From: Acidobacteriaceae bacterium
GTDB lineage: Bacteria > Acidobacteriota > Terriglobia > Terriglobales > Acidobacteriaceae
Length of the DNA: 37,077 bases
Assembly: GCA_025355385.1 (NCBI GenBank)
Contig: JANXZS010000097.1
Coordinates: 1 to 37,077 of the forward strand
Direction of reading: 5' to 3'
The notes under the pieces are model-generated. The model ran no database searches, was not told the DNA's origin, and saw only the letters and a list, made by a program, of their open reading frames with translations. Shown piece by piece: positions 6,037 through 26,530 of this stretch. Within the stretch, counting starts at the first letter, position 1, and each line of letters begins with the position of its first letter. A program made the translations under genes and the position numbers.

Positions 6037-6217
6037 CCTGTGTCTATTGTCTTACGAGTGGAGCAGAAGAGCGAACCGCGCACTTTCACGGACAGCAAAT
6101 AGTGCATAAGCCGGCAACGGTGGGGCCCGTGGGCAGAGTGCCGCCTGGCATCGGGTGGCAAGTGATTACGCGGGCGCCGGTCACACGGCGCTGAGCCATT
6201 CCGATAGGATGATTTCT

Positions 6218-6928
6218 ATGCGCATTGCCTTTTTCGGCGGGAGTTTCGATCCCCCTCACTGCGGTCATCTGGCAATCGCCCGGGCTGCGATCGAGCACAT
6301 GGCACTTGATCGGGTGCTCTTTGCCCCGGTCGGTACACAGCCTTTAAAGCGCGAGTTGCAGCCGGCGGGTTTTGCGGATCGCCTCGCGATGGTGCAGCTT
6401 GCTGTGGCAGGCGACCCCAGGCTGGATGTGTCTATGTTGGACGCGCCCCGCGCCGACGGCCAGTCAAATTACACGCTGCGGACACTGCATGAACTGCGGC
6501 AGGCGCTGGCCCCCGAGGACGAACTATTCTGCCTGGTGGGCGCTGACTCTTTCCTAACGCTGAAGCAGTGGCATGGAGCTGAGGACCTGCTGTTCGCCTG
6601 CGATTTCGTGGTGGCTGGCCGGCCGGGTTTTCTGCTAAACAATTTAGCCGCAGCTCTTCCAGAAGGAGTGCGTGTATCGGGCACGCCCAAACTGCTAGCG
6701 CCGGGCTGCCTATCCGTCCTGCTGGAGAACCCCTCGCGACGTCGATCTCATCTCTTTGTGCTGCCCGATCTGAAAGAGGACATCTCCGCCACCGAGATTC
6801 GCCAGGCTATCCTGGTGGGGGTTGAGGGGGGGCCATGCGACGAGCATTCAGTTCTACCCGCTGCCGTGATCACTTATATTAGGACTCACGGGCTGTACCG
6901 CGGGAGCGGGGAAGAATCCAGACCATAG
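6218..6928 (+). CDS. nadD: Nicotinate-nucleotide adenylyltransferase
   Basis: This 236-aa enzyme adenylates nicotinate mononucleotide to deamido-NAD in NAD synthesis. It begins MRIAFFGGSFDPPHCGHLAI: the nucleotidyltransferase motif GGSFDPPHxGH with His14 and His17. Towards the end DISATEIRQAI corresponds to the second ATP-binding motif (ISxTxIR). The segment VGADSFLTLKQWH is the family's GxDxxxxLxxWH. The frame is open from an ATG at 6155, but the conserved protein starts at 6218, with TAGGAT at about 9 nt upstream, so the longer start is rejected. rsfS follows, the common nadD-rsfS pairing. Confidence 0.95.
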   Translation: MRIAFFGGSFDPPHCGHLAIARAAIEHMALDRVLFAPVGTQPLKRELQPAGFADRLAMVQLAVAGDPRLDVSMLDAPRADGQSNYTLRTLHELRQALAPEDELFCLVGADSFLTLKQWHGAEDLLFACDFVVAGRPGFLLNNLAAALPEGVRVSGTPKLLAPGCLSVLLENPSRRRSHLFVLPDLKEDISATEIRQAILVGVEGGPCDEHSVLPAAVITYIRTHGLYRGSGEESRP

Positions 6929-6990
6929 CTGGCGCCCCTCTCGCCTCACGAGCTACGATGGAAGAGAAGTCAGGAGAACAACCGAACAGA

Positions 6991-7635
6991 ATGGCATCCC
7001 TCGAGACACGCCGCATGGTACTTGCTGCCGCCGCAGCCTGCGAAGACAAAAAGGCAGAAGATACACGCATTCTGGAACTGGACCCGATGGATTCCGGTTT
7101 CACTGACTTCTTCCTCATCGCCAGCGGAACCAATGCCCGGCAGGTAGTCGCGATCGCGGATGAGATTGAAATGCGTATGAAGCGGGAATTCGCCACCTAT
7201 CCCAACTCGGTCGAAGGCCGTAGGCAGGGTGAGTGGGTGTTGATGGACTACGTAGATTTCGTGGTCCACGTATTCCTGACTGAGAAGCGCGCTTTCTATG
7301 ACATTGAGCGGCTGCGTAAGTCGGCAACGCTGGTGGATCTGGCGCAACTGAACGCGGCTCTTAACGAGAAGGTGAAGGCCGTCCGCAAAAAGTCGCCGGC
7401 AAAGAAGGTTGTTCCCTCTAATGCAAAGAGAGCGGCGGGAAAAAAGACTGCTTTAGGAAATAAAGTAACTGCGACAGTTACGAAACCAAAGATTCCAGCG
7501 AGGAAGGGAGCGAAAGCCGCTCCAGTAAAGGCTGCCACAAAGAAAGCGGTAACGACAAAAGTAACCGTGACTGCGATGAAATCGCCCGTAAAGAAAAAAG
7601 TTGCGAGTAAGAAGAAGGCTGCAGACAACGGCTAG
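6991..7635 (+). CDS. rsfS: Ribosomal silencing factor RsfS with Lys/Ala-rich C-terminal tail
   Basis: RsfS (formerly YbeB/Iojap) binds ribosomal protein L14 (uL14) and blocks joining of the ribosomal subunits when nutrients are scarce. Residues 1-115 carry the family pattern: ACEDKKAEDTRILEL, then FTDFFLIASGTNARQVVAIADEI, then EGRRQGEWVLMDYVDFVVHVF and FYDIERL. After about residue 120 the protein continues for roughly 95 residues made mostly of Lys, Ala, Pro, Val and Thr (AKK, KKVV, KAATKKA, VKKKVASKKK), like a histone H1 tail; most RsfS proteins are only about 105-130 aa. Start: an ATG at 6958 is also in frame, but AGGAG at 6972-6976 precedes the ATG at 6991 (14 nt, rather long), so the exact start is uncertain. 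Confidence 0.9.
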   Translation: MASLETRRMVLAAAAACEDKKAEDTRILELDPMDSGFTDFFLIASGTNARQVVAIADEIEMRMKREFATYPNSVEGRRQGEWVLMDYVDFVVHVFLTEKRAFYDIERLRKSATLVDLAQLNAALNEKVKAVRKKSPAKKVVPSNAKRAAGKKTALGNKVTATVTKPKIPARKGAKAAPVKAATKKAVTTKVTVTAMKSPVKKKVASKKKAADNG

Positions 7636-7656
7636 AATCTGCCGAGATAAGCCACG

Positions 7657-25928: not shown

Positions 25929-26225
25929 CTACTTCTTTGGTGGAGCGATGACGTCCTTGGCGGCTTTGGCCACGCGGAACTTGACGACTGTCTTCGCCTT
26001 AATCTTGATGGTTTCGCCGGTCTGCGGGTTGCGGCCCAGGCGAGCCTTGCGCTCCGCCTTCACCAACCGGCCGAGTCCGGGGATTACAAATACGCCGTTC
26101 TTTTTGGTTTCCTTCACTGCGGTTTCTGCCAGCAGATCGAGAAAAGCCGCTGTTTGCTTGTTCGTGAGTACGAGCTTCTCGGCCAAATGCCGGACTAGTG
26201 CTGTCTTGGTCATACCTGCTGCCAT
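25929..26225 (-). CDS. HU/IHF-family DNA-binding protein
   Basis: This 98-aa nucleoid protein binds and bends DNA as a dimer. It starts MAAGMTKTALVRHLAEKL (family MTKxELIxxIA), continues with a central VFVIPGLGRLVKAERKARLGRNPQTGETIKI containing the GRNPxTGExIxI signature of the DNA-binding arms, and ends TVVKFRVAKAAKDVIAPPKK. The frame is open up to 26471, but a perfect AGGAGG precedes the ATG at 26225, so the longer version is rejected. The loop IPGLGRL differs from the usual LxGFGxF in keeping Leu-Gly and Leu in place of the Phe residues, a variant common among Acidobacteria-type HU proteins as far as I recall. It is monocistronic, with its own terminator. Confidence 0.93.
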   Translation of the reverse strand: MAAGMTKTALVRHLAEKLVLTNKQTAAFLDLLAETAVKETKKNGVFVIPGLGRLVKAERKARLGRNPQTGETIKIKAKTVVKFRVAKAAKDVIAPPKK

Positions 26226-26530
26226 GTAATCCTCCTGATGATGCGTATCATTCGCCACGCCAGAGTGCGACTGTGCGCTTCGAAATTTTCTCTGGTGCAG
26301 CGTACTGCTGGATTTCCGGGCTCTGGACCAGCATGGAGAGTTTTTTGCGTTTGTTCGGGCCGTGGTCCGATGTGCGCGAAACCCTGTATTCATGCGGGTT
26401 AAAAGAACCCCACCGCCGTTTACGATGCGACTTGCAGAAATCTTTGTCAACGACAAAACGCCTATTTCCACAGGTTTTTTAGGGTTTTGTACCGTTTTTA
26501 ACCACTTTTCCTAGAACTTTGGCATATTTG
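26226..26530 (-). promoter_or_regulatory. 305-nt upstream region of the HU gene
   Basis: No gene is seen here. The leftward strand holds AGGAGG next to the HU start and, further up, a TTGACA hexamer that is half of the dyad TTTGTC-GTT-GACAAA (26443-26457). No good -10 at 17 nt from that TTGACA is visible, so the promoter assignment is weak. The DUF2461 stop is at the right edge, and no terminator-like hairpin with a T run follows it. Confidence 0.35.

Follow-up and report, generated by a model that had tools for sequence, protein, structure and literature searches.

The window analysed here, a stretch of 37,077 nucleotides from a genome of the Acidobacteriaceae, encodes a ribosomal silencing factor (RsfS) which continues beyond its conserved domain into a long basic tail rich in lysine and alanine. 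Safe idling of ribosomes during starvation depends in part on RsfS, and many Acidobacteria are soil oligotrophs that grow slowly. The question raised by this locus is what such a tail does on a ribosome factor, and how widely it is shared among relatives.

The gene lies in an uninterrupted open reading frame of 225 codons (6958–7635, plus strand), in which the Met opening the 214-amino acid form (MASLETRRM, at 6991) is residue 12. This Met is preferred as the start since the congener genome (G001, the only other genome of the genus compared) shows no start codon ahead of the equivalent Met in its copy of the gene, and since in most of the relatives compared the similarity begins at residues 10–12 of the 225-amino acid form. 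The congener frame thus upholds the start and the length of 214 amino acids assigned by the first-pass annotation. The features of the locus are collected in Table 1. On contig C253 the window's genome has a second, partial rsfS with a basic-tail end (L002), which was considered and rejected as a second gene copy, being a contig-end fragment; given this position and its identity over 141 bases with L108, a Granulicella MAG, it is probably a binning contaminant.

Table 1. Features at and beside rsfS (positions in the window)
Feature	Position	Strand	Basis
Upstream neighbour, cytidylyltransferase-like protein (which we take to be nadD)	6155..6928	+	PF01467, E 1.4e-17
rsfS, ribosomal silencing factor with C-terminal basic tail, 214 aa	6991..7635	+	PF02410, TIGR00090; start from congener frame
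RsfS core domain, residues 1–109	6991..7317	+	profile end, AlphaFold2, Foldseek
C-terminal tail, residues 110–214	7318..7632	+	29 K/R versus 3 D/E
Extra helix after the core, residues 117–134	7339..7392	+	AlphaFold2 prediction
Low-complexity Lys/Ala/Pro/Thr/Val part, residues 135–214	7393..7632	+	AlphaFold2, no secondary structure predicted

The core is that of an ordinary silencing factor. Matches to PF02410 (E 5.7e-29; 100.7 bits against a cut-off of 21.6) and TIGR00090 (E 1.5e-26; 92.4 bits against 56.9) both stop at residue 119 of the 225-amino acid form. PMC7125091 gives E70, D81 and Y98 of Staphylococcus aureus RsfS as conserved contacts with uL14; counted along the alignment to 6sj6 these correspond to E75, D86 and Y103 of the window protein. 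Among 66 aligned sequences D86 and Y103 never vary, and E75 hardly does. An AlphaFold2 model built with 66 sequences (mean pLDDT 84.2, pTM 0.64) has the known RsfS fold in the core, at a pLDDT of 84–98 per ten-residue block, and a Foldseek search with it returned 4wcw, 2o5a and 6sj6 as the top structures (4wcw_A at E 1.3e-10). The window protein is a normal RsfS with an intact core sequence, and by homology its core would dock on the 50S subunit.

The tail, too, is confirmed. The first-pass annotation had put it at about 95 residues, which is correct when counted from residue 120; from the end of the profile match it is 105. Its first part is predicted to form the extra helix listed in Table 1 (pLDDT 93 for block 111–120 and 94 for block 121–130), and the approximately 80 residues which follow are modelled without structure (pLDDT 60–71 per block from residue 141), so that the distal tail is presumably disordered. 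The description of the tail as histone H1-like holds for its composition and fails at the level of profiles: its Lys/Ala content resembles that of HC2 (PF07382), but a search of the window tail against Pfam returned neither this nor any other family at E 1.

Comparison with the congener disposes of the idea that the tail is a degenerate reading frame. While 85 of 97 core residues are identical between the two proteins, 66 of 101 aligned tail residues are, half of them (33/66) encoded by a different codon, and 28 of the 33 basic tail positions of the congener are also basic in the window protein. Identity maintained through codon changes, together with the retained basic positions, excludes that reading.

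A search for RsfS recovered it from 141 of 150 genomes in the window's family and from 287 of 297 in the phylum sample. Its C-terminal end was examined in 252 of 253 loci, representing a subset of all genomes, and duplicates were then removed; loci from genome contigs were assigned to the family by title and similarity. When a tail is defined as at least 25 amino acids with a net charge of at least +7, it is present in 185 of 186 distinct family sequences and in two (L039 and L040) of 53 outsiders, most of the latter being other Acidobacteriota with a few from other phyla. In the 185 distinct family sequences with a complete 3' end the tail measures 27–273 amino acids (median 71) and has a median net charge of +20 (range +2 to +72; 185 sequences), as opposed to outsider ends of 7–36 amino acids (median 13) with a median net charge of 0 (range -4 to +8). 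The sole family exception, L066, has lost the charge (net +2), and two further members, L076 and L157, have 38-amino acid tails with a net charge of +7. In a FastTree phylogeny of the core domain the family forms a single block (one change). By the same definition the tail is missing from all 20 loci examined in ten further families of the class (f2, f82 to f87, f89, f90 and f92; f81, f88 and f91 were left out). Two loci of f87 end in 20 amino acids with net charges of +6 and +7, and these short basic ends could be a forerunner of the family tail; in f84 the ends reach 49 amino acids and carry no net positive charge.

From this distribution the tail probably dates from near the family's base, and its charge has been retained since then, its length and sequence not. 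The first-pass annotation had asked whether charge and length are conserved across relatives, and the answer is divided: charge is, length is not. It would have counted as refuted had close relatives had short proteins and the tail, in a degenerate frame, occurred only here, which its presence throughout the family contradicts. The tenfold range of lengths, the charge loss in L066 and the minimal tails of L076 and L157 indicate at the same time that the tail is not strictly required.

Such latitude would suit a lineage-specific low-complexity expansion of little specific function, harmless on a ribosome-bound protein and drifting in length. The range of 27–273 amino acids, the poorly conserved sequence and the occasional loss all fit, and C-terminal low-complexity regions are frequent on bacterial ribosomal proteins (PMC6821194). 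We nevertheless regard this explanation as unlikely: the charge is kept in all but one of the family sequences and most basic positions are kept in the congener pair, no DNA tandem repeat underlies the window tail (7300–7640 searched), and ends of this kind are rare in the congener sample.

This last point comes from a comparison of the K+R fraction in the last 60 residues of each protein, using gene lists that are crude ORF calls. Among the 33 crude genes of the window, RsfS (0.28, net +16) ties for the highest K+R with an HU-like protein (0.28, net +13). The latter, a DNA-binding protein encoded at 25929–26468 on the minus strand (PF00216, E 7.3e-23), has an open frame of about 85 residues before its HU domain. 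In the congener sample (400 kb, 282 crude genes) the leading values are 0.37 for RNase R (895 amino acids, with a PF00773 match) and 0.35 for RsfS, the next gene having 0.27. Since only these two reach 0.35, a proteome-wide bias toward Lys/Ala tails is unsupported in the congener sample. RsfS is absent from the 14 listed rows of the G044 sample (290 crude genes), most of which look like spurious ORFs, because its tail there ends in a less basic stretch. In all 31 loci compared, ribosomal protein uL22 ends in a basic Lys/Ala-rich stretch (24–71 amino acids, net +5 to +17); the set lies wholly within the family and comprises 30 of 37 matched genomes (L318–L347) plus L309, and this uL22 end may not be special to the lineage. 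The basic ends seen belong to proteins working on ribosomes, RNA or DNA.

What the tail might do on RsfS can be framed from its docking site. On the 50S subunit RsfS occupies a pocket lined by uL14, bL19 and 23S rRNA helix 95 (PMC7125091), and a long polycation placed there should readily reach rRNA phosphate. We propose that RsfS acquired, close to the root of this family, a disordered polycationic tail that follows a short helix. The core would dock on uL14 and block joining of the 30S subunit, while the tail would anchor the protein, electrostatically and without specificity, to the 23S rRNA around its binding site or to the rRNA of immature 50S subunits; this would raise affinity and slow the release of RsfS, and silenced subunits would thereby remain silenced through long starvation. 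Both the binding and its effect are our inference, and we give this anchor an even chance. The intact core, the family-wide spread, the retention of charge while sequence drifts and the lack of a general bias in the congener speak for it. Against it, the tail has no motif for any particular rRNA element, Lys/Ala tails bind DNA too, and the named lysine-tail precedents, HupB and TopA, are DNA binders (PMC5676037). The first-pass annotation had suggested tethering to rRNA or to DNA, an interpretation which is partly supported overall; the rRNA version is favoured because helix 95 and bL19 adjoin the place where RsfS binds and because uL22 of the family has a comparable basic end.

The high charge of the family tails (median +20, up to +72) would also agree with an action on other polyanions, such as mRNA or polyphosphate, instead of the subunit to which RsfS is bound, for example in gathering silenced 50S subunits into condensates. 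Such action is a general property of disordered polycations. As no direct evidence for it emerged in this analysis, we consider it very improbable.

In a relative genus, g44, the gene may give a second product. RsfS was found in 14 of its 15 genomes, giving 13 distinct sequences, one of them identical to an Acidicapsa dinghuensis record (L063; L264). All 13 tails contain an in-frame GGAG situated 8 nt before an ATG (eight sequences) or a GTG (five), from which a product of 78–209 amino acids with a net charge of +20 to +60 is predicted. Several features indicate selection at the level of nucleotides. The start residue is Met in some sequences and Val in others; all five Val are encoded by GTG, which makes up 54 of the 165 Val codons across these tails. 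At the site, Gly is encoded by GGA in each of the 13 sequences, whereas GGA accounts for 9 of the 59 Gly codons of the core; the residue after it varies between Asp and Gly, with GGAG always preserved. In L120 the peptide motif is lost, yet GGAGG is retained before GTG. On the tree the signal has a single origin.

The g44 sequences are related, and these counts are not independent trials. The seven sequences of subclade B are near synonymous saturation, only 7 of 74 amino-acid-invariant core columns keeping a single codon, and the Gly of the site is GGA in all seven; one of four invariant core Gly columns likewise has the same codon throughout (GGC), which means that little can be concluded from one invariant codon by itself. 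In the six sequences of subclade A the exact Shine-Dalgarno core is four bases only (GGAG), and the columns around the start form an island in which 18 of 19 are codon-invariant, compared with 33 of 91 elsewhere. The same six sequences (L069, L080, L083, L135, L257 and L261) have a second, largely codon-invariant island in the RsfS core, at columns of about 60–90, a stretch whose codons are not kept in this way in three other sets of relatives. This second island undercuts the codon invariance of subclade A as proof of an internal start, and the case leans on subclade B for that reason.

Internal starts were rejected as a general feature of the tails. In 139 tails of at least 40 amino acids, exact Shine-Dalgarno matches of at least 5 bases at the proper spacing numbered 11, against 10.8 expected from codon shuffling, and those of 6 bases numbered 6 against 4.1; five of the 11 come from g44, and the scan leaves out those g44 sites with a four-base core. 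With no overall excess, the case for an internal start rests on conservation inside one genus. The window tail has one ATG and two GTG codons, none of them preceded by a Shine-Dalgarno core of the list used. In the G044 sample 32 of 141 genes have a Shine-Dalgarno match of at least 5 bases before one or other of the candidate starts among their first 40 codons, and 104 of 2910 internal in-frame ATG or GTG codons have such a match; this weak genome-wide usage lessens the weight of any single site. Folding energies at the internal start fell within the codon-shuffle spread in all 13 sequences, giving no sign of unusually open mRNA there. As to where the g44 tail came from, an origin by fusion with a standalone gene found no backing: in a search of 24 family genomes the L087 internal product matched just its own rsfS and, in another genome, one uL22-like end (a call made by eye), in a search so insensitive as to miss the other g44 tails given.

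On conservation of the site, the g44 tail is probably also translated as a free histone H1-like protein. We are inclined, with some reservation, to view g44 rsfS as a two-product gene, yielding tailed RsfS and a free H1-like polycation from a Shine-Dalgarno start gained once, and so combining silencing and nucleic-acid coating in one message. Six g44 tails (L063, L067, L087, L095, L263 and L265) share a short motif, G-A-K/Q-P-P-hydrophobic, either right at the C-terminus or ahead of it; this motif might act as a docking peptide.

A free product of this kind bears on the view that the tail works mainly on the nucleoid, as a DNA-binding module. Bound to RsfS or free, it would cover DNA as lysine-tailed HU or H1-like proteins do, and would tie dormant ribosomes to the nucleoid or compact the DNA of starving cells. 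Its composition recalls the lysine tails of HupB and TopA described in PMC5676037, several HC2 matches found in the 24 family genomes fall in rsfS itself, and the distal tail of L087 alone resembles HC2 weakly (E 6.9e-5), although at 23.5 bits against a cut-off of 40 it failed the profile test. We think a DNA module rather unlikely all the same, as the RsfS core is a ribosome binder, neither the window tail nor the window's genome has an HC2 match, and a likelier nucleoid protein is encoded separately by relatives. This is a gene with an acidic N-terminal part and an AKK-rich C-terminal part, seen in six loci of family genomes (L310 and L313–L317), and its product looks like a standalone nucleoid protein; in four of the six it adjoins a gene with LysM-like repeats, as judged by eye.

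A family-wide polycationic tail suggests that this lineage has altered the way in which it holds or stores silenced 50S subunits. The nested start of g44, if true, would make rsfS a compact example of a single gene giving both a hibernation factor and a histone-like protein. RsfS itself is already known, as are low-complexity ends on ribosomal proteins and lysine tails that stabilise nucleic-acid binding (PMC6821194 and PMC5676037, respectively, for the last two); neither a family-wide polycationic RsfS tail nor a nested H1-like start in rsfS was among the literature matches listed.

The window protein shares its fold, uL14-contact residues and profile match with the RsfS/YbeB/Iojap proteins of known structure, including the S. 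aureus 50S–RsfS complex (6sj6) and the Mycobacterium tuberculosis protein (4wcw). The bacterial RsfS chains aligned have 105–152 amino acids, whereas the window protein has 214, of which 105 lie beyond the core. The mitochondrial RsfS, MALSU1 (5ool, 9e9c), is homologous in its core domain and is likewise long (chains of 228–234 amino acids), but its extra residues, about 96–102, precede the matched core. The tails of HupB and TopA are lysine-rich and C-terminal like that of RsfS, and are reported (PMC5676037) to stabilise nucleic-acid binding; they sit on DNA-binding proteins, whereas the tail described here sits on a ribosome factor.
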